From Bacteroidota bacterium (lineage in GTDB: Bacteria > Bacteroidota > Bacteroidia > AKYH767-A > OLB10): a stretch of 47,548 nucleotides of DNA. A program made the position numbers and the translations under genes. Below, piece by piece: positions 19,946-38,305 of the stretch. How positions within the stretch are numbered: the stretch's first letter is position 1; each line of letters opens with the position of its first letter. The stretch is from positions 1-47,548 of the forward strand of contig CAUJFJ010000076.1 of assembly GCA_963169675.1 (NCBI GenBank), read 5' to 3'. The notes beneath the pieces are model-generated. The model was not told the DNA's origin, searched no databases, and saw only the letters and a list, made by a program, of their open reading frames with translations.

Positions 19946-20165
19946 AATGGAGGATTAAGGATTAAGATAGTTTTTTTTTGCAACTAGTCAATTATCAATA
20001 GAATCATTGTGAGTATGAGAAGCCACTAACTTTAGGTACCACAAAAGAAAACATTATAAATACGAAATCTTGAAGTTTATCTGTTTACCATTTATTCTCG
20101 TTCAGTAGTTCCTTTGAGCAACACAGAAACACTCTTAGTACCTGGTTCAGAACAGACTGATCACA

Positions 20166-20300
20166 GTTCACTCTTCACTGATTACTTTTCACTGCTAACT
20201 GTTCACTCTTCACTGATTACTTTTTACTGCTAACTGTTCACTCTTCACTGATTACTTTTCACTGCTAACTGATCACTCTTCACTGATCACTTTTCACTTT
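20166..20300 (+). repeat. 35-bp tandem repeat, about 3.9 units
   Basis: The unit starts GTTCACTCTTCACTGATTAC and ends CACTGCTAACT. Units are 20166-20200, 20201-20235 (one C-to-T change), 20236-20270, and a diverged last unit 20271-20300. Each unit contains smaller TCACTG-type repeats. The array ends 5 bp before the first TTAAC repeat of the downstream regulator promoter. Confidence 0.9.
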
Positions 20301-20305
20301 AAAAT

Positions 20306-20361
20306 TTAACCACAATTTAACTTTCATTCTATTTTGGGTTAAACCTGATGAAGTATTTTTG
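20306..20361 (+). promoter_or_regulatory. Pho-type promoter of the receiver-less regulator
   Basis: TTAAC lies at 20306 and 20317 and TTAAA at 20339, all on one 11-bp grid (the slot at 20328 is empty). The -7 element TATTTTTG is at 20354-20361. Offsets from repeat start to -7 are 48, 37 and 15 bp, the same grid as at pstS, phoB and two other promoters in the window. A TTTG at 20333-20336 could also serve as a -33 element (17-bp spacing). Confidence 0.65.
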
Positions 20362-20380: not shown

Positions 20381-20767
20381 GTGAACAAAATCGTAATTTT
20401 AGAAGAAGATCAGGCAATCCCATCAGGAAATACCCGTAATACACGGGAGAATGGTGTTGATTGGAGATTGGCAGTGGATGCAGGAGAACTCGAGAGTAGT
20501 TTAATAATCGATAAACCTGCTTATACCGTTTATCTGGAGGGTAACAGAATATCTTTTCCTAAAAAAGAATTTGAATTGCTTTTGCTCCTTGCAACCAATC
20601 CCCGGAAGGTTTTTAAACGAAATGATATTCTTGAACATATTTGGGGAAAAGATTTCAAACAGAAAGATTCTCGTTCCCTGGATGTTCACATCAGAATGCT
20701 TCGGAAGAAGTTAAATGATAGTTATATCACGACCATAAGAGGAGTAGGGTATAAGCTGGAAAAATAA
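20381..20767 (+). CDS. Receiver-less PhoB/OmpR-type winged-helix protein
   Basis: A 128-residue protein whose residues about 45-128 are a complete Trans_reg_C winged helix, including FPKKEFELLLLLATNP, the recognition-helix segment DVHIRMLRKKL and the C-terminal RGVGYKLEK. By hand alignment about half of some 80 positions match the C-terminal domain of the PhoB-like protein at 27778. The N-terminus MNKIVILEEDQAIP resembles beta-1 and the acidic corner of a receiver domain, but the phosphorylated Asp and the rest of that domain are gone; about 30 unrelated residues join the two parts. It could bind PhoB sites without phosphorylation, as an activator, competitor or heterodimer partner. The start is GTG, 19 bp after the -7 element. 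Its promoter carries phased TTAAC repeats, and it converges on the pst operon. Confidence 0.8.
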   Translation: MNKIVILEEDQAIPSGNTRNTRENGVDWRLAVDAGELESSLIIDKPAYTVYLEGNRISFPKKEFELLLLLATNPRKVFKRNDILEHIWGKDFKQKDSRSLDVHIRMLRKKLNDSYITTIRGVGYKLEK

Positions 20768-20855
20768 TCCCTTTTCAGTGTGCTACGAATTCTTGTATTT
20801 TTCACGCTGAATTCAAAGAACTTTTATCAATTCATTCCCGGATTTCCGAAATTCA

Positions 20856-21713
20856 TCAATATTTTACGGTTCGCTTTATTCTCAGGTAAACAGCTGCAGC
20901 ATTTAGCAGGAAGGTGATTCCAAGCAAAATGATAATCCCCGCCGAAGCATTTACCAGAAAGGCTGCTTGTGGTCGTGATACCCAATTGAAAATCTGGATG
21001 GGAAGTACTGTAAATTCAGAAGTGGGACTAGTAGGTACGAATGGAACATATGCCAATGCACCCACAACAATAAGTGGTGCCGCTTCCCCAATGGCACGAG
21101 AAATAGCAATGATGATTCCGGTAATAATTCCACTGCTTGCAGATGGAATAACGGTAGATTTTACTGTCTGCCATTTTGATGCACCCAAAGCATACGATGC
21201 TTCACGTAATGAACTTGGAACAGCTTTGATTGCTTCTCGTGTTGCTACAATAATAATAGGTAATATAAGCAGTGCCAAAGTAAAACTTCCTGCAAGTATG
21301 CTTCCACCCATTCCCATCATACGACCAAAAATTTCAAGTCCTAATAAACCATAAATAATAGATGGGACACCGGCGAGATTGGTAATATTGATTTCAATAA
21401 TTTTTCCTAATCTCGATTTTTTGGAGAATTCTTCGAGGTAAATAGCTGCACCAATTCCAATCGGAATAGCTGCAAGTGCTGTAATAACTATAATCCAAAG
21501 TGTTCCTGCCAAAGCGGAAAGAATACCTGCTTTTGCAGGATTTCGTGATGGATAGCTGGTGATGAAATCCCAACTGATCCTGGAAATTCCTTCACTAAAA
21601 ATACTTGAAATGAAAATGGCCAGCATAGCCAATCCGAAGAATGTGCAAAACATTCCGAATATTTTAAAGGAAGAATCTTTAAAACGTGAGATTTTCTCGA
21701 AGCGATTAGACAT
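20856..21713 (-). CDS. pstA: Phosphate ABC transporter permease PstA
   Basis: A 285-residue inner-membrane protein with six predicted helices. It is one of the two permease subunits of the high-affinity PstSCAB phosphate importer. The ABC-permease EAA loop is visible as EASYALGASKWQTVKSTVIPSASSGIITG, and the N-terminal GILSALAGTLWIIVITALAA helix is typical. Its start overlaps the end of pstC by 8 bp, indicating translational coupling. It is the last gene of the operon: the ATPase gene pstB and the regulator phoU, which normally follow, are absent, and 88 bp later a convergent gene ends. Confidence 0.93.
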   Translation of the reverse strand: MSNRFEKISRFKDSSFKIFGMFCTFFGLAMLAIFISSIFSEGISRISWDFITSYPSRNPAKAGILSALAGTLWIIVITALAAIPIGIGAAIYLEEFSKKSRLGKIIEINITNLAGVPSIIYGLLGLEIFGRMMGMGGSILAGSFTLALLILPIIIVATREAIKAVPSSLREASYALGASKWQTVKSTVIPSASSGIITGIIIAISRAIGEAAPLIVVGALAYVPFVPTSPTSEFTVLPIQIFNWVSRPQAAFLVNASAGIIILLGITFLLNAAAVYLRIKRTVKY

Positions 21714-22587
21714 ATTTTTTCTCGAGTTTTTTGTTCAGATAGTAACTGGCATTATTTAACATGAAGGTGAATACAAAAAGTGCAATTCCGGCAGCGAAAA
21801 TCGTACGGTATTCCAAGGAGTTATGTGCAACATCGCCTAAGCTAACCTGAACGATGTATGTAGTAATTGTTTCAATGGGCACGAATGGGTCCAAAGTTAA
21901 CTTCGGTTGTTGTCCCGCAGCAATTGCAACAATCATGGTTTCACCAATAGCTCTTGAAATTGCCAGAATTGCTGAGACAATAATTCCGGAAGATGCTGAT
22001 GGTATGATTACCTTAAATGCAGTTTGAAATCTGGTTGCTCCTAAGGCAAGTGATCCTTCACGGATATAACGTGGCACAGCTGAAATTGCATCGTCACTCA
22101 ATGAAGATACATATGGGATAATCATAATTCCCATTACAAATCCTGCAGAAAGGGAATTGAATCCCGACATGGAAGGAAAAATGGTTTGTAAAAAAGGAGT
22201 TACAATGGTGAGAGCAAAAAATCCATAAACAACCGTTGGTACGGATGCCAAAATTTCGAGTAATGGTTTGATGATATTTTTAAATCTTGGTGACGTGTAT
22301 TCATTCAGATAAAGTGCAATGGTTAATCCAATAGGAAGTGCAACCATAATTGCAATGAATGAAGTCAATAAAGTTCCGGTAAGCAAAGGTAAAATTCCGA
22401 AATGTTTATCGGCGAATAGAGGTGTCCATTGAGTATCGGTAAGGAAATCGACTATTGAAACTTCACTAAAAAACTGAAATGCTTCGAAAAGCAAAACATA
22501 TAAAATTCCTGCGGTGGTCAGGATGGTAAGCAGTGCACATGCTGCTAGTCCCAACTCAATCAGTTTTTCTTTATCTCGTTTTTTCAT
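21706..22587 (-). CDS. pstC: Phosphate ABC transporter permease PstC
   Basis: A 293-residue inner-membrane permease, partner of PstA. Features are an N-terminal helix (LGLAACALLTILTTAGILYV), the periplasmic SEVSIVDFLTDTQWTPLFADKHFGILPLLTGTL-type segment of PstC (family FLt..W.P), and the EAA loop REGSLALGATRFQTAFKVII. The ATG at 22585-22587 (MKKRDKEK) is chosen over an in-frame ATG at 22602, because that one lies inside the pstS-pstC hairpin and adds only five residues. It overlaps pstA by 8 bp. Confidence 0.92.
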   Translation of the reverse strand: MKKRDKEKLIELGLAACALLTILTTAGILYVLLFEAFQFFSEVSIVDFLTDTQWTPLFADKHFGILPLLTGTLLTSFIAIMVALPIGLTIALYLNEYTSPRFKNIIKPLLEILASVPTVVYGFFALTIVTPFLQTIFPSMSGFNSLSAGFVMGIMIIPYVSSLSDDAISAVPRYIREGSLALGATRFQTAFKVIIPSASSGIIVSAILAISRAIGETMIVAIAAGQQPKLTLDPFVPIETITTYIVQVSLGDVAHNSLEYRTIFAAGIALFVFTFMLNNASYYLNKKLEKKYV

Positions 22588-22594
22588 AACCAGG

Positions 22595-22623
22595 AAAAGC
22601 ATCCGCTATTAACGGATGCTTTT
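22595..22623 (-). terminator. Hairpin between pstS and pstC
   Basis: An 11-bp perfect stem, AAAAGCATCCG (22595-22605) with CGGATGCTTTT (22613-22623), around a 7-nt loop. It begins 23 bp after the pstS stop and ends 7 bp before the pstC start. Read on the minus strand, the stem ends in TTTT, so it can act as a leaky terminator or as a 3' stabiliser of the pstS message. Either would give more PstS than permease, as is common for binding-protein genes. Confidence 0.7.
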
Positions 22624-22646: not shown

Positions 22647-23627
22647 TTATTTTTTAACATGAGTGCTCATGAAGTCTTCATATTTCTTTTTCTGAGCAGC
22701 ATATTCTTCATCAGACATTGGAATAAATCCAACTTCTCTTGTAAGAGCTCCTGCATTATCAAGATAGAACTTTACAAATTCATTCACTTCCGGACGATCA
22801 ACAGCAACTGAATTAACATATACAAACAATGCTCTTGAAAGTGGTGCGTATGTTTTGTTTTTTACTGTTTCAACTGATGGAAGAATTGCTCCTGCGCCGT
22901 TTGCTTCATTTTCATCGTTCACCGGAACCAGTTTCAATTTTTCTTTGTTTTCTTCATAGTAAGCATATCCAAAAAATCCTAAAGCATTTTTGTCGCCTGC
23001 TACACCTTGTACTAAAATGTTGTCATCTTCACTTGCTGTATAATCACCGCGGCTTTTGTGGCTTTCACCAACAATAGCTTCTGTAAAATAATCATAGGTT
23101 CCTGATTCTGTTCCTGCACCATACAAATGGAATTCAGTGTCAGGCCATCCTGCACGGATCTGGCTCCATTTTGTGATTTTTCCTTGTGCTTCTGGTTCCC
23201 ACATTTTTTTCAATTCTGCAACTGTAATATCTTTAACCCAGTCGTTTGCAGGATTAATTACAACTGATAATCCATCATAAGCTACTTCAAGTTCTAAATA
23301 GTGAATGTTGTTAGCTTCACATGCTTTGCCTTCATCTTCTTTAATATGACGTGATGCATTGTTGATATCCGTTTCTCCTCTGCTGAATTTCTTGAATCCA
23401 CCACCGGTACCTGATAAACCAACAGTAACTTTCACATCAGGTTGAACTGAACGGAACTCTTCAGCAACAGCTTCCGAAATTGGATAAACTGTACTGGAAC
23501 CGTCAATTTTAACTTCTCCTTTTAATTTGTCAGAGGTTGATGCCGTTTCTTCCGTTTTTGGGGCACCACATGAAGCGAATAATGTTGTTCCCACAGCCAA
23601 AATCGCGATCAAAGATTTAATTTTCAT
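22647..23627 (-). CDS. pstS: Phosphate-binding lipoprotein PstS
   Basis: A 326-residue substrate-binding protein of the Pst importer. A lipoprotein signal ends at LFASC with Cys20, so it is probably anchored on the outer face of the inner membrane. Phosphate-contact motifs are present: [17 protein letters not shown] (about 43-59), [12 protein letters not shown] (about 74-85) and [16 protein letters not shown]. The Lys-rich C-terminus [16 protein letters not shown] is typical of this PstS subclass. It is the first gene of pstSCA, with a phased-repeat promoter about 80-135 bp upstream. Confidence 0.95.
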
Positions 23628-23705: not shown

Positions 23706-23761
23706 CAAATTTGTGCACTTAACATTGGATAAACATTAACCCTATGTTAAATTAATGTTAA
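23706..23761 (-). promoter_or_regulatory. Pho-type promoter of pstSCA
   Basis: On the minus strand TTAAC starts at 23761 and 23750, TTAAT at 23739 and the weak CCAAT at 23728, a strict 11-bp series. The likely -7 element CAAATTTG (one mismatch to TAnnTTTG) starts at 23713. Offsets are 48, 37, 26 and 15 bp. The predicted leader before pstS is about 75 nt. Confidence 0.7.
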
Positions 23762-23853
23762 CATTATTATGTTATTGATAATGAAATAAATAGATCGTTT
23801 TCAGCTTTCAATTTTCACTGATTTTCATCATATTTTCTGCGATGGGAATGAAT

Positions 23854-23889: not shown

Positions 23890-24291
23890 ATGAAATTTAA
23901 ACTTACTGAAATAGCGACTATTGAAGATCTGAACTCCGGTTTCATGGCGAAATTCCCTTTTCTGAAGCTTGAATTCTTCAAAAAGGGTCATGGTGAGGAG
24001 GAGCCATCTGCAAAACGTGATCTTTTACAACCTTCTACCAGCCTTTATTCAATTTCTGTAACCAGGAAGGTGGATGAATTTGAAATTTCACCGGCAACTA
24101 CTGTCGCTGAGCTGGAGACCAGAATGAAAGATTTATTTGGTTGGCATGTCCAGGTTTTTCGCAGATCAGGGAAAGTATGGCTCGAAACCACATCGAGCGA
24201 TCATCTTACCTTAGGGGAACTGAATGAAATTGGAAAAGAGCACAGCACACCTTTCGAAGAAGATAAGCTGATTGATTTCGATTATGATTGA
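23890..24291 (+). CDS. Small conserved-looking cytoplasmic protein of unknown function
   Basis: A 133-residue soluble protein with no signal peptide, membrane helix or cysteine. It is acidic at the C-terminus (HSTPFEEDKLIDFDYD). The middle region ISPATTVAELETRMKDLFGWHVQVFRRSGKVWLET looks like a small alpha/beta fold, with a beta-strand pair after a helix. I do not recognise the family. The gene has its own promoter and lies between the divergent pst operon and the convergent CDF transporter, whose stop is within 10 bp of its own. A real gene is supported by the promoter, normal codon use and tight convergent packing. Confidence 0.7.
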   Translation: MKFKLTEIATIEDLNSGFMAKFPFLKLEFFKKGHGEEEPSAKRDLLQPSTSLYSISVTRKVDEFEISPATTVAELETRMKDLFGWHVQVFRRSGKVWLETTSSDHLTLGELNEIGKEHSTPFEEDKLIDFDYD

Positions 24292-27715: not shown

Positions 27716-27760
27716 TTAACATTAACTTAACAATCACCGGTCGAAACGTAGATACCTTTG
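27716..27760 (+). promoter_or_regulatory. Pho-type promoter of phoB
   Basis: TTAAC occurs at 27716 and 27727 (11 bp apart) and the perfect -7 element TACCTTTG at 27753-27760. Offsets are 37 and 26 bp, on the shared grid. It suggests autoregulation of the two-component system. Confidence 0.65.
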
Positions 27761-27777: not shown

Positions 27778-28461
27778 ATGAATCCTGAGAAGATAAAAAT
27801 ACTGTTGGTAGACGATGAGCCGGATATTCTTGAGTTTATGGAATATAATCTGAAGAAAGAGGGATTTCAAACACTTTGTGCCCGTAACGGGGAAGAGGCA
27901 GTAGAATTAGCCATCAAGAACAAACCGGATCTTATTATTTTAGACATCATGATGCCGGTGTTGGATGGAATTGAAGCCTGCAGAATGATACGGAACAATG
28001 CAGAAACCAAGAATGTACTAATAGCTTTTCTCACGGCCCGCAATGAAGATTATTCGCAAATTGCAGGATTCGATGTTGGTGCCGACGATTATATCAGTAA
28101 ACCCATAAAGCCCCGTGTATTAATCAGCCGCATTAAAGCTCTTTTACGACGTTCGGGAACAGAATCGGGAAGTGATGATTTTGTGAAAATCGGAAACCTG
28201 GAAATTGACCGGGAGAAATATCGGGTAAGCAGTAATGGTTTGGAACTTACCTTCCCACGAAAAGAATTTGAACTTTTATCGTTGTTAATTTCAAAACCTG
28301 GCAAGGTATTTACCCGCGAAGAAATAATGACCAAAGTATGGGGCGACGACATTATAGTTGGCGATCGTACGATTGATGTGCATATCCGGAAAATCAGAGA
28401 AAAACTTGGTGATGAATCAATTAAAACCATCAAGGGTGTTGGTTACAAGTTTGATGCATAG
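27778..28461 (+). CDS. phoB: PhoB-type phosphate response regulator
   Basis: A 227-residue OmpR/PhoB-family regulator. The receiver domain (about 5-122) has acidic residues D12-D13, the phosphorylation site Asp56 in LIILDIMMPVLDG, the Thr of AFLTAR and the Lys of YISKPIKP. The winged-helix domain (about 135-227) has FPRKEFELLSLL, the recognition segment RTIDVHIRKIREKL and KGVGYKFDA. The phosphate role is inferred from context: it is followed by a PhoR-like kinase, lies in the same window as pstSCA, ppk1 and ppx, and its own promoter has the TTAAC grid. A second protein with nearly the same DNA-binding domain but no receiver is encoded at 20381. Confidence 0.88.
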   Translation: MNPEKIKILLVDDEPDILEFMEYNLKKEGFQTLCARNGEEAVELAIKNKPDLIILDIMMPVLDGIEACRMIRNNAETKNVLIAFLTARNEDYSQIAGFDVGADDYISKPIKPRVLISRIKALLRRSGTESGSDDFVKIGNLEIDREKYRVSSNGLELTFPRKEFELLSLLISKPGKVFTREEIMTKVWGDDIIVGDRTIDVHIRKIREKLGDESIKTIKGVGYKFDA

Positions 28462-28531: not shown

Positions 28532-29581
28532 TTGAATACGCACAAACCCCGTAGAATAGCACTGAACACGGCCTTTTCCATTTCAGTGGTCGCTGCAATT
28601 CTGATGGCCACCTTGCTATGGTATCTGCAAGTCGAGAAATGGTATTTGCTGGCAGTAATAACTCTGGTTTTATTGCTCATCACTACATTTCTATTTATCA
28701 ATTATGCTCTCGATAAATATTTTTATCAAAACATCCGAATCATTTACAAGAACATTCTGCAACTAAAGAATGCTCAAGGTAAAACTATTGGAAAGAAAAT
28801 TGCAGATGAGCATGTGCTTCCTGAAATCAATAAAATTCTGATTGAATGGGAGCAAGGCAATAAAGATGAGATTGTACATCTGAAGGAATTGGAATCGTTC
28901 CGCAAAGAGTTTTTAGGAAATGTTTCTCACGAATTAAAAACTCCGATTTTCACGATTCAGGGTTACATTCATACCTTGATTGATGGAGGAATAGAAGATC
29001 AGGAAATTAATATGCTTTATCTCCAGAAAGCAGGCAAGAGTATCGACCGATTAATTTCCATAGTGGATGACCTGGAATCAATTTCAAAACTGGAAGCCGG
29101 AGAACTCATTCTTGAAAACAGAACATTTGATATTCATGAACTTGTTTTGGATGTGATGGAGTCTCTTGAATTAAAAGCAAAAGAGAACAATATTACACTG
29201 TCATTGAAGGAAAAGGAAACCGGCAAAGTGTATGTTTACGCAGATAAAGACCGCATCAGACAAGTGCTGGTGAATTTGCTGGTGAATTCTATTAAATACG
29301 GGAAAAGAAGTGGTGCAACTGAGGTTGATATTGATCAGAATGATGACGACGTAGTGATTGAAGTGAAAGATAATGGCATTGGAATTGAAAAGCATCACTT
29401 GAGTCGCTTGTTTGAAAGATTTTATCGCGTTGATAAAAGCAGATCACGGGAACAAGGTGGTACCGGACTTGGTCTGGCAATTGTGAAACACATTATGGAA
29501 GCCCACTCACAAAAAATTAACGTTGAAAGTACACCGGGCATTGGAACTACTTTTACCTTTACCTTAAAGAAAAGCAGATGA
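28532..29581 (+). CDS. phoR: PhoR-type sensor histidine kinase
   Basis: A 349-residue membrane kinase. Two adjacent helices (about 10-31 and 36-57) leave only a few residues outside the membrane, so it has no periplasmic sensing domain, as in PhoR proteins that sense through the Pst system. The cytoplasmic part has the HisKA box FLGNVSHELKTPIF with His133, then the N box VNLLVNSIKYG, G1 VKDNGIGIEKHHLSRLFERFYRVD, and G2 GGTGLGLAIVKHI. A PAS domain, usual in E. coli PhoR, is not evident between the helices and His133. The start is TTG; the first ATG would fall inside the first helix. It is 70 bp downstream of phoB. Confidence 0.87.
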   Translation: MNTHKPRRIALNTAFSISVVAAILMATLLWYLQVEKWYLLAVITLVLLLITTFLFINYALDKYFYQNIRIIYKNILQLKNAQGKTIGKKIADEHVLPEINKILIEWEQGNKDEIVHLKELESFRKEFLGNVSHELKTPIFTIQGYIHTLIDGGIEDQEINMLYLQKAGKSIDRLISIVDDLESISKLEAGELILENRTFDIHELVLDVMESLELKAKENNITLSLKEKETGKVYVYADKDRIRQVLVNLLVNSIKYGKRSGATEVDIDQNDDDVVIEVKDNGIGIEKHHLSRLFERFYRVDKSRSREQGGTGLGLAIVKHIMEAHSQKINVESTPGIGTTFTFTLKKSR

Positions 29582-33798: not shown

Positions 33799-33834
33799 CG
33801 CTTCTGAAGTAGCTGTAAATTAATTGTTTCCGGT

Positions 33835-33890
33835 TTAACAATGAATTAACCTGACTGTAACAATCAGTTAATTTGGTATGTATTTTTTTG
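33835..33890 (+). promoter_or_regulatory. Pho-type promoter of the TonB receptor gene
   Basis: TTAAC at 33835 and 33846, GTAAC at 33857 and TTAAT at 33868 form four 11-bp repeats. The -7 element is TTTTTTTG at 33883-33890 (one mismatch). Offsets are 48, 37, 26 and 15 bp. The ATG follows 58 bp after the -7. Confidence 0.65.
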
Positions 33891-33948: not shown

Positions 33949-36795
33949 ATGAAAAAGATTCTATCACTTGCAGTATTTATCCTTTGCTTATCGGTTACAC
34001 TGCATGCTCAAACAGGTTCCATCAGCGGTCGTATTATGGATGGTACAACTAAAACTCCATTACCCGGAGCCAGTGTTGTAATTGATGGTACCACTCAAGG
34101 TGCTATGACAGATCTGGATGGCTTGTTCAAAATTACTTCAGTACAACCCGGAAAAGTTAATTTGAAAATCAGCTACGTTGGTTATGTAACGCAATTGCTT
34201 TCAGGAGTAGAAGTTACATCTGGTAATGATACCAAGATAGAATTAAAACTTGTAGAAAATGTTAGTCAGTTGCAAGGAGCTGATGTAGTCGCACAAAGAA
34301 GCACACATACCGAAAATGCCGTTTTAATGGAGGTAAAACAAAGCGAGCAAATTATCAGCGGTGTTTCGAGTCAGCAAATAGGCAGATCACAAGACCGTAC
34401 GGCTGGTGAAGTAATTCGCAGAGTGCCCGGTGTAACTTTAATGGATAATGGTTTTGTGTTGATCCGTGGTTTGAATGAACGTTATAACACTGTTTTACTG
34501 AATGGAATTATAGCACCCAGCATGGAAGCCGATAAGAAAGCTTTCACATTAGATGTAATTCCTGCAGGTATGCTCGATCGTTTAATGGTTTATAAAACGG
34601 GTTCTCCCGAACTTCCTGGTGAGTTTGCAGGTGGTGTGATTAAAATTGTTACCAAAAATGTTTCTGAAGAAGATCAGTTTACAATTGGCTATACCAGTGG
34701 TGTGAGAGCTAATACCACCTTCAACGATTTTTATCAGGCACCAAAAGGTAATTCAGACTGGTTGGGAAGAGATGATGGCACCAGAAGTTTACCCGGTAGC
34801 TTTCCTACCAGTTTGTATGATATAAAAGATCCCGGTCAGCTAGCTGATTTAGGAAAGAAATTACCCAATGCATGGACTTCAGCAAAAATTCAGGCAGCTC
34901 CCGATCAAAGATTCAGTGCTTCCTTGATAAAGAATTTAAAGTTCGGCAAAATGAAAGCCGCAAATATTACAGCATTGCAATATGGAATGACTTTCGATTC
35001 TTATGAAGCACAAAATTTAGGTTTCAATTCGTATGATCTGAATACACAGCAAAGTGATACCATTTATGATTATAACGACCGCATGTATCGTGAAAATGTT
35101 CGTTTGTCATTACTTCACAACTGGACTTTCCTGGTTTCACCGGCCACAAAAATTGAATTCCGTAATTTCTTTAATCAACAAGGTTCTAACCAATCCATTT
35201 TGAGAACCGGTTCAAACTTTGAAGAAGGAAGTCTTGTAAAAAGTTATGCATACCGTTATCAGGAGCGTACTGTGTATAGCGGACAGTTGCATGGTTCACA
35301 TGAAATTAATGCCAACAGAACTAAAATCGACTGGACAGCAGCTTATTCCTATTCACATTCTGCAGAACCTGATTTTAGAAGAATCAGAACAAAAAAAGAC
35401 ATCAGTGCAACATCTGACAGCATTCCTTATCAGGTTGTAATTGCTCCTTCAGCTTCAACTATTGATGCAGGAAGATTTTATTCCGACCTCACTGAAAATA
35501 CAGGCAGCGGAGCACTTGATTTTGAACATGCTTTAAAATCGAAAGCAGATTTATTGATACCAAAATTCAGAGCCGGAGTTTATGTGGAATCGAAACAACG
35601 TGAATTCAGTGCCCGCTGGATGTCGTACAAACAATCGAAAATCACAGGTTTCGATAATTCACTTCTTTATTTGCCACTCGATCAGATTTTCGCTCCTGAG
35701 AACATTAATGATTCCACAGGATTTAAATTAGAAGAAGGAACTAATCCAAGTGATAAATATAGTGCATACAATTCGCTTACTGCTGGATATGCCGCATTAT
35801 CGTGGCCCATCACTGAGAAGTTCAATGTTTCAGGTGGGGTAAGAATTGAGCATAATATTCAGCAATTAGAGAGTCGTTCCTATACCAATGCAAAAATTAC
35901 GGTTGATAATACTATCACAAGTATTTTGCCTTCTGTTAATCTCTCCTACAACTTTACACAGAAAATGCTGGTTCGTGTTGCTTATGCACAAACAGTCAAC
36001 AGACCTGAATTCCGTGAACTTGCACCTTTCGCTTATTATGATTTTACTTTTAACAATGTATTAATCGGAAACAGTGAATTAAAAACACCAACCATTCAGA
36101 ATTTCGATGTGCGATGGGAGTTGTATCCTTCCAATAGTGAAATGATATCGATCGGTGCATTCTATAAAGATTTTCACAATCCGATTGAAATGTTTTTTGT
36201 CCCCGGTTCAGGTTCCGGAGGAACCAGAAACTTCACTTACAACAACGCTGATAAAGCTACAAGTTTAGGTTTTGAAATTGAAGTTAAGAAATATTTCATC
36301 TCGTTGTTTGATACCACAGGAAAAGATCAGGGCTTGTTTATTCGTCGTTTTGTAAGTCGTTTAGGATTAACTGCCAATGCAGCATGGATTGACAGTGAAG
36401 TGAAACTGGGTAACAAAGCTGTCGGTCAAAGTGAAAACAGACCAATGATGGGACAGTCACCATACATTTTCAATGTTGGACTATTTTTCTCGAATGTAGA
36501 AAAGAAATTCCAGGTTACTGCTTTGTACAATACAATCGGTAAAAGAATCTTTGCTGTTGGTACTTATGGTACTCCCGATATTTACTACATGCCACGACAC
36601 AGTATTGATTTGACTGTTACCAAAGGAATTGGAAAGCGCCTTGAAGTTAAGGCCGGCGTACAGGATTTGCTTGCACAGGATGAAGTTTACCAGCAGGATT
36701 CCAATGAAGATGGTAAGATAAATACTACTGATGAGAAGGTATTTGTAATCAGAAGAGGGGCTTATTATTCTCTTGGTTTTAATTTAAAATTCTAA
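33949..36795 (+). CDS. TonB-dependent outer-membrane receptor with CRD domain
   Basis: A 948-residue outer-membrane transporter. The signal peptide is about 1-21; a carboxypeptidase-regulatory-like domain covers about 23-102 (GSISGRIMDGTTKTPLPGAS); the plug domain is about 120-235 with GEVIRRVPGVTLMDNGFVLI and GEFAGGVIKIVTKNV; and a 22-strand barrel ends in the aromatic strand AYYSLGFNLKF. It is energised by TonB-ExbB-ExbD to import scarce ligands. It is not next to a susD gene; instead a beta-helix lipoprotein gene follows. The loop ERYNTVLLNG with MEADKKAFTLDVIPAG is typical of a Bacteroidota receptor subfamily I cannot assign to a substrate by sequence. The phased TTAAC promoter and the neighbouring phosphate genes suggest phosphate or a phosphorus compound. 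Confidence 0.88.
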   Translation: MKKILSLAVFILCLSVTLHAQTGSISGRIMDGTTKTPLPGASVVIDGTTQGAMTDLDGLFKITSVQPGKVNLKISYVGYVTQLLSGVEVTSGNDTKIELKLVENVSQLQGADVVAQRSTHTENAVLMEVKQSEQIISGVSSQQIGRSQDRTAGEVIRRVPGVTLMDNGFVLIRGLNERYNTVLLNGIIAPSMEADKKAFTLDVIPAGMLDRLMVYKTGSPELPGEFAGGVIKIVTKNVSEEDQFTIGYTSGVRANTTFNDFYQAPKGNSDWLGRDDGTRSLPGSFPTSLYDIKDPGQLADLGKKLPNAWTSAKIQAAPDQRFSASLIKNLKFGKMKAANITALQYGMTFDSYEAQNLGFNSYDLNTQQSDTIYDYNDRMYRENVRLSLLHNWTFLVSPATKIEFRNFFNQQGSNQSILRTGSNFEEGSLVKSYAYRYQERTVYSGQLHGSHEINANRTKIDWTAAYSYSHSAEPDFRRIRTKKDISATSDSIPYQVVIAPSASTIDAGRFYSDLTENTGSGALDFEHALKSKADLLIPKFRAGVYVESKQREFSARWMSYKQSKITGFDNSLLYLPLDQIFAPENINDSTGFKLEEGTNPSDKYSAYNSLTAGYAALSWPITEKFNVSGGVRIEHNIQQLESRSYTNAKITVDNTITSILPSVNLSYNFTQKMLVRVAYAQTVNRPEFRELAPFAYYDFTFNNVLIGNSELKTPTIQNFDVRWELYPSNSEMISIGAFYKDFHNPIEMFFVPGSGSGGTRNFTYNNADKATSLGFEIEVKKYFISLFDTTGKDQGLFIRRFVSRLGLTANAAWIDSEVKLGNKAVGQSENRPMMGQSPYIFNVGLFFSNVEKKFQVTALYNTIGKRIFAVGTYGTPDIYYMPRHSIDLTVTKGIGKRLEVKAGVQDLLAQDEVYQQDSNEDGKINTTDEKVFVIRRGAYYSLGFNLKF

Positions 36796-36934: not shown

Positions 36935-38305
36935 ATGAACATGAAACAAACTTCAAAAAGAATCGCAGGACTCAGCAGTATGATGCTGACCATGCTTGCC
37001 CTTGCTGCAATCACCATCGTAGGATGTAAAAAAGATGATGACGATGCTACTACACCAACTCCAACCGGAACAACTATTGAAATATCCGGTGACCTCACTA
37101 CTAACACTAACTGGACAGCCATCAATAAATATGTATTGAAAGGATTCGTTTATGTTAAAGATGGTGCTACCCTGAATATTGAAGCTGGTACCGTAATTAA
37201 AGGAGACAAAGCAACTAAAGGAACACTAATCATTGAAAGAGGTGGTAAAATTAATGCAGTAGGAACAGCTGCTAAGCCTATTGTATTTACATCTAATGAA
37301 GCTGCAGGAAGCCGTTCTTATGGTGACTGGGGTGGTATTATCATTTGTGGTCGTGCACCAATTAACTTGCCTGGTGGCGAAGGAACCGTAGAAGGTGGAA
37401 CAAATGCACTTTATGGTGGAACAAATGCAACTGACGATTCAGGAAAATTGAAATATGTACGTATTGAATTTTGCGGAATAGCATTTCAACCAAATCAGGA
37501 AATTAATGGTTTGACACTTGGTGGAGTAGGATCAACTACAGAAATTTCAAATATACAGGTTTCTTACAGTGGTGATGATTCATATGAAATGTTTGGTGGT
37601 ACTGTAAACCTGAAAAATATTGTCGCTTACCGTGGTTGGGATGATGATTTTGATACAGACAACGGATATATTGGTAAAATTCAGTTTGCACTTGCTTTAC
37701 GCGATAAAGATATTGCTGATCAATCAGGTTCAAATGGTTTTGAATCAGATAATGATGGTTCAGGAACTACCGCAACTCCTTATACAAAACCAATCTTCTC
37801 GAATGTAACTGTATTTGGTCCGATGGAAAATTCATCAACTACCACAAATTCACTTTACAAAAGAGCTGCTCATTTAAGAAGAAATACACAAACATGTATT
37901 TATAATTCTGTTTTTGCAGGATATCCTACAGGATTATTCATTGATGGTTCTTCAACAGAATCTAATGCTGCAGCAGCAGATCTTCAATTCAGAAATAATA
38001 TCATTGCCGGTTGTACAACTCCATTATCTGCAAGTGCATCATTCGATATTCAGGCTTGGTTCAATACACCATCTTTCGCAAATACGTTGCTTACCAATTC
38101 AACAGACATTCAATGTGGTTATCCGTTCGATTTGCTTTCACCTGATTTTCTGCCACAAACTTCTTCGCCATTATTAAGTGGTGCCGATTTCTCTAACAGC
38201 AACTTGCAAGGATTCTTCACTTCAGTTTCTTATCGTGGTGCATTTGGTACAACCGACTGGACAGAAGAGTGGTGTAATTTCGATCCACAAAATACTGCTT
38301 ACTAA
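36935..38305 (+). CDS. Surface lipoprotein with right-handed beta-helix, partner of the TonB receptor
   Basis: A 456-residue exported lipoprotein. The signal peptide ends at TIVGC with Cys31, followed by KKDDDDATT; acidic residues just after the Cys resemble the export signal that sends Bacteroidota lipoproteins to the cell surface. Residues about 50-330 have the stacked short strands of a beta-helix (GAGT/GATL-type turns, VGTAAKPIVFTSNEA, GDWGGIIICGRAP, GLTLGGVGSTTEISNIQVSYSG). An acidic stretch GWDDDFDTDNGYIG could bind Ca2+. There is no T9SS sorting domain. The start may be 36935 or the ATG at 36941. It follows the receptor by 139 bp, has its own phased-repeat promoter and ends at a strong terminator. 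I infer a surface ligand-capture partner in place of SusD. Confidence 0.8.
   Translation: MNMKQTSKRIAGLSSMMLTMLALAAITIVGCKKDDDDATTPTPTGTTIEISGDLTTNTNWTAINKYVLKGFVYVKDGATLNIEAGTVIKGDKATKGTLIIERGGKINAVGTAAKPIVFTSNEAAGSRSYGDWGGIIICGRAPINLPGGEGTVEGGTNALYGGTNATDDSGKLKYVRIEFCGIAFQPNQEINGLTLGGVGSTTEISNIQVSYSGDDSYEMFGGTVNLKNIVAYRGWDDDFDTDNGYIGKIQFALALRDKDIADQSGSNGFESDNDGSGTTATPYTKPIFSNVTVFGPMENSSTTTNSLYKRAAHLRRNTQTCIYNSVFAGYPTGLFIDGSSTESNAAAADLQFRNNIIAGCTTPLSASASFDIQAWFNTPSFANTLLTNSTDIQCGYPFDLLSPDFLPQTSSPLLSGADFSNSNLQGFFTSVSYRGAFGTTDWTEEWCNFDPQNTAY

Follow-up and report, generated by a model that had tools for sequence, protein, structure and literature searches.

A Receiver-Less PhoB-Type Protein Conserved at a Phosphate Locus of Bacteroidota, a Candidate Feedback Brake on the Pho Response

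RESULTS

A PhoB-type DNA-binding protein that has no receiver domain is encoded beside pstSCA in a Bacteroidota bacterium and is conserved, under purifying selection, at this Pho locus. Its gene lies in the window, the whole 47,548-nucleotide stretch of DNA that we analyzed (contig CAUJFJ010000076.1; Table 1). Its relatives indicate where it probably came from, and its promoter and altered protein surfaces point to a possible role in damping the phosphate response. Genomes are referred to by number, the window genome being G000.

Table 1 Features of the window and the receiver-only gene of the same genome
Feature	Position	Strand	Basis or remarks
Pho-type repeat grid, 11-bp phase	20305..20343	+	TTAAC at 20306 and 20317, weak TCTAT at 20328, TTAAA at 20339
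TATTTTTG, match to the Bacteroidetes -7 element TAnnTTTG	20354..20361	+	
Receiver-less PhoB-type winged-helix gene	20381..20767	+	DNA-binding domain at residues ~40-128; low-confidence tail at residues 1-39
pstA, convergent neighbor	20856..21713	-	TIGR00974, 273.5 bits (cut-off 193.45)
pstC	21706..22602	-	TIGR02138, 282.6 bits (cut-off 196.45)
pstS	22647..23627	-	TIGR02136, 298.9 bits (cut-off 206.6)
Canonical PhoB (receiver and winged helix)	27778..28461	+	Pfam, both domains
PhoR-type sensor histidine kinase, 3' of phoB	28532..29581	+	PhoR/PnpS models, E 1e-72 to 1e-79, below curated cut-offs
Receiver-only gene	G000:C257:17173-17565		131-aa intact receiver

The protein and its locus

The open reading frame starts with GTG, is uninterrupted, and encodes 128 amino acids. 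Trans_reg_C (PF00486) is the sole Pfam match (residues 54 to 126, E = 1.1e-24); the Pfam search found no receiver domain, and thus no PhoB-type receiver with a phosphorylatable aspartate, whereas the local PhoB has both domains. The original prediction of a full winged helix, about half identical to that of the local PhoB and lacking a receiver, therefore agrees with what we found, the domain identity being 51%. The structure prediction proposed at that stage gave a winged helix with high confidence (pLDDT ~90 over the domain, <50 in residues 12 to 26). Foldseek matched the model, among many family members, to the PhoB effector domain 1gxq and its DNA complex 1gxp (probability 1.00), so that domain and fold both place the protein with OmpR/PhoB-type winged helices. 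Two PhoB models score it low (NF053854, 70 bits with a cut-off of 270; TIGR02154, 65.8 bits with a cut-off of 296.2), but neither cut-off is reached by the local full-length PhoB either (220 and 229.8 bits, respectively), which makes these scores weak evidence for this genome.

The gene had been placed next to pst, and TIGR models scoring above their cut-offs confirmed pstA, pstC, and pstS as its neighbors. The pstSCA genes lead directly to the convergent receiver-less gene (20767 to 20856). pstB and phoU are not adjacent to pstSCA in the window and are adjacent to it in G032, G158, and G029. A porin identity for the proteins adjoining pst in G032 and G158 was dropped, as they have no Pfam match. 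Two further open reading frames of the window also lack Pfam matches: one of 133 amino acids (23890 to 24291) is conserved in G001 and G004, again close to the receiver-less gene, and homologues of the other, of 456 amino acids (36935 to 38305), recur within the Pho loci of G029, G119, G083, and G040.

Conservation and origin

G001, from the same genus, carries a full-length copy that is 95% identical and occupies the same place beside pstSCA. In G004, from the same family (JAHEMF010000025.1), the domain is 68% identical and the gene lies upstream of phoB at a distance of ~5 kb, among conserved neighbors. The window and G001 copies give a dN/dS of 0.064 over the whole gene. The ratio is 0.013 in the domain, where 1 change is nonsynonymous and 18 are synonymous, and 0.27 in the more relaxed tail; all of these values come from small counts in one genome pair. 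Purifying selection and the existence of orthologues thus speak decisively against a decaying fragment, the outcome that an absence of orthologues had been expected to signal. The search for orthologues and their gene context recovered them in related genomes; members of the clade described below mostly sit at pst or at another Pho locus. Relatives are present in several other families but are patchily distributed: strong matches were obtained in 2 of the 7 genomes of the order of G158, and no further members came from searching that order and the order of G119.

In a tree of 66 domains, which rests on 90 columns and whose bootstrap had not settled, 11 of the 13 receiver-less or pseudo-receiver proteins group in a single clade (88/86) that is separate from canonical PhoB. 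The window protein falls inside this clade and the G029 and G041 proteins outside it; the subclades unite the window protein with those of G001, G004, and G119 (99/87) and the G056 protein with that of G158 (100/96). Degenerate receivers are kept in the G158 and G083 relatives, and the G119 relative has a beta1-alpha1-beta2 remnant that is recognized by a receiver profile (0 of 2,000 shuffles reach its score). The N terminus of the window protein, in which the residues VILEED had been read as the vestige of a lost receiver, matches the same profile no better than shuffled sequences do (803 of 2,000 are as good) and has no significant alignment to the local PhoB or to the G119 relative; by these tests, VILEED is not demonstrable as a vestige from the window protein itself. 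Receiver loss is instead supported because of the pseudo-receiver relatives and the G119 remnant. The former suggest that the protein derives from receiver-bearing ancestors, and the relatives as a whole support a putative PhoB paralogue whose receiver was lost. Other genomes, too, have pseudo-receiver PhoB paralogues at Pho loci, with the acidic receiver residues replaced (L170:8510-9211 and L208:3383-4051).

Promoter

The claim that the gene's own promoter bears the Pho repeats was borne out: TTAAC recurs in 11-bp phase there, as it does upstream of pstS (~23725 to 23770) and in the phoB promoter (27716 to 27760), which reads TTAAC-N6-TTAAC, then 21 bp, then TACCTTTG. In pattern searches of the 3.87-Mb genome, the source of all promoter counts given here, TTTAACCACAATTTAAC (20305 to 20321) is one of three exact occurrences of TTTAAC-N5-TTTAAC. 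The TTAAC units lie 48 and 37 bp upstream of TATTTTTG, which matches TAnnTTTG, the established consensus of the Bacteroidetes -7 element. The same offsets from TAnnTTTG are found at the receiver-less genes of G001, G119, and G032, as well as at the receiver-only genes of the window genome, G001, and G158; the G004 receiver-less gene has TTAAC and ATAAC, i.e., one mismatch. TTAAC-N6-TTAAC-N19..45-TAnnTTTG has seven matches in the genome versus 1 + 1 with the reversed control, and among the seven are the receiver-less gene, phoB, and the receiver-only gene on contig C257. With a 32-bp gap, the layout has only two exact occurrences in the genome, at the receiver-less gene and at the receiver-only gene; its expected count of ~0.01, based on base composition, is descriptive, having been computed after the layout was seen.

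Directly upstream of the start, 78 of 80 bases are identical between the window and G001, and the repeat array farther upstream has diverged. A 7-bp ACTG array (20156 to 20298) was considered for the Pho grid and rejected, because it belongs to a minisatellite that recurs across the genome (82 matches versus 2 for the reversed pattern) and because it differs in G001. TTTAACAATGAATTAAC (33834 to 33850) lies upstream of a TonB-dependent receptor gene (33949 to 36795), which itself follows ppk and ppx.

Because the promoter shares its repeat with phoB and pstS, we infer Pho control of the receiver-less gene. The repeats occupy what would be an activating position and are conserved in relatives, as expected of a Pho regulon promoter, and induction by phosphorylated PhoB is predicted from them. 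The four-unit grid, made up of two good and two weaker units, also bears on how the product might act. It could fill some units beside phosphorylated PhoB and tune occupancy or promoter choice with no net brake, in keeping with this mixture of units and with the head-to-tail arrangement of PhoB domains on 11-bp units in the matched 1gxp fold; we judge such cobinding very improbable, and the changed base-contact residues described below are equally compatible with different targets.

The receiver-only gene

The second gene with this promoter layout has orthologues in G001 (98% identical), G004 (67%), and other genomes; its grid is exact in G001 and looser in G004 and several others. In G158, G056, G029, and G040, a receiver-only gene sits next to a gene for a DNA-binding protein that is receiver-less or has a pseudo-receiver. 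Within the family, G000, G001, G004, and G007 have strong receiver-only orthologues, and the first three also have the DNA-binding-only gene. Shared layout, adjacency, and this co-occurrence would fit a regulator in two pieces, in which the receiver-only protein acts in trans on its DNA-binding-only partner or on PhoB. This arrangement has, in our view, a low probability: the two genes are unlinked in the window genome, the DNA-binding gene was not found in G007, which has the receiver-only gene, and G158-type relatives have the receiver-only gene even though their DNA-binding protein retains a pseudo-receiver.

DNA-contact residues and the sigma-contact loop

The recognition region DVHIR-x-LR-x-KL had been described as kept. 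The motif is present, and most helix positions are retained (R193, D196, V197, H198, R200, R203, and K205), but comparison of the helices revealed substitutions relative to the local PhoB. Among the four base-contact positions of E. coli PhoB, the window protein differs at 194 (T to S) and at 201 (K to M, the first x of the motif), both of which make base contacts in the E. coli protein (PMC3264566). Position 219 is R in the window protein and K in the local PhoB. Canonical proteins have T194 and K/R201 without exception (131/131 each), whereas the window clade has S194 and M201. Because positions 194 and 201 differ, targets or affinity may differ from those of the local PhoB. Taken further, the changes could direct the protein to other sites and tie phosphate starvation to another regulon, which is scarcely probable given the helix residues that are kept.

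Full-length E. coli PhoB binds the pho box at 440 nM when unphosphorylated and at 9.7 nM when phosphorylated; its isolated DNA-binding domain binds at 63 nM (PMC3264566) and activates transcription (PMC3264566, PMC4415409). The raised affinity and activity of this domain, together with the W184 and G185 equivalents retained in the window clade, speak for a constitutive activator that, freed of a receiver, binds Pho boxes, activates, and sustains the response once induced by PhoB (positive feedback). We nevertheless consider positive feedback improbable in light of the loop through which PhoB contacts sigma. In E. coli, the substitutions W184R, G185R, V190M, and D192G abolish activation (PMC3973317). 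Among the fetched sequences, whose rows are related and not independent (11 of the 13 receiver-less or pseudo-receiver proteins are one clade), the V190 position holds V or I in 131/131 canonical proteins and in 0/13 of the others, the loop is 8 residues long in 131/131 versus 5/13 (9 residues in 8/13), and G185 is present in 130/131 versus 5/13. Given this relatedness, Fisher tests on these counts overstate the evidence. Seven of the 131 canonical proteins were assigned by hand, a long or cut start having hidden their acidic motif. The window protein thus lacks the V at 190 expected of a PhoB sigma contact; its loop has one extra residue and a net charge of +1, whereas canonical loops are negative in 129 of 131, and its position 177 is N.

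The loss of the V190 equivalent favors a brake over a constitutive activator, a preference that comes mainly from the loop change and the effects of the E. coli substitutions. The loop argument crosses phyla and is one by analogy, because Bacteroidetes have a sigma factor different from E. coli sigma70.

DISCUSSION

We propose that a PhoB paralogue without a receiver acts as a Pho-induced, phosphorylation-blind competitor of PhoB and hence as a negative-feedback brake, a reading to which we give slightly less than an even chance. During phosphate starvation, phosphorylated PhoB would switch on the receiver-less gene. The product would then occupy Pho boxes regardless of PhoR, because nothing would silence its DNA-binding domain, and its altered sigma-contact loop would make it a poor recruiter of RNA polymerase. 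Competition with phosphorylated PhoB would damp or reset the response, including at the paralogue's own promoter. Both the Pho-box binding and the sign of its effect are predictions from sequence. The coregulated receiver-only protein may simultaneously drain phosphoryl groups from PhoR. By extension, some Bacteroidia might possess a two-part feedback module under PhoB control and with a shared promoter layout, in which the DNA-binding-only protein competes for Pho boxes and the receiver-only protein for PhoR; we regard this wider scheme as rather unlikely.

Receiver-less and pseudo-receiver members of the family are already known singly. The window protein resembles the Bacteroidota PhoB described by NF053854 and TIGR02154 in its winged helix, upstream TTAAC grid, and locus and differs from it in the missing receiver, the sigma-contact loop, and the residues at 194 and 201. 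Like the effector domain of E. coli PhoB when isolated by truncation in the laboratory (Ellison and McCleary 2000, cited by PMC3264566 and PMC4415409), it is a winged helix without a receiver, for which phosphorylation-independent binding would be expected; the E. coli truncation differs in retaining the activating loop and stimulating transcription, whereas the V190 equivalent is missing from the natural protein. ChxR, HP1043, and GlnR are phosphorylation-independent OmpR/PhoB regulators with pseudo-receivers (PMC12632262, PMC3960148), a type that the G158, G083, G037, and G040 relatives resemble. In the window protein, by contrast, the receiver is wholly gone, and the gene is a likely member of the regulon that its parent paralogue controls. 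Actinobacterial NnaR, which has been described as receiver-less (PMC12632262), partners with GlnR (PMC6277429) and, compared by description and not by homology, is likewise a regulator without a receiver that is both controlled by an OmpR/PhoB-type master regulator and active alongside it; it serves nitrogen rather than phosphate control, and it cooperates with GlnR instead of opposing it. We found no earlier description of the system reported here in the open-licence papers searched, which leaves its novelty unproven.

The relatives display stages of receiver loss, from a degenerate receiver through a beta1-alpha1-beta2 remnant to none, mostly at phosphate loci, and along with this loss the surface through which PhoB recruits RNA polymerase is altered. 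If the brake model holds, a natural feedback on the Pho response would come from a pared-down version of its own activator; if the two-part module is also true, a response regulator would have been split into two separate dampers made from PhoB-like parts.
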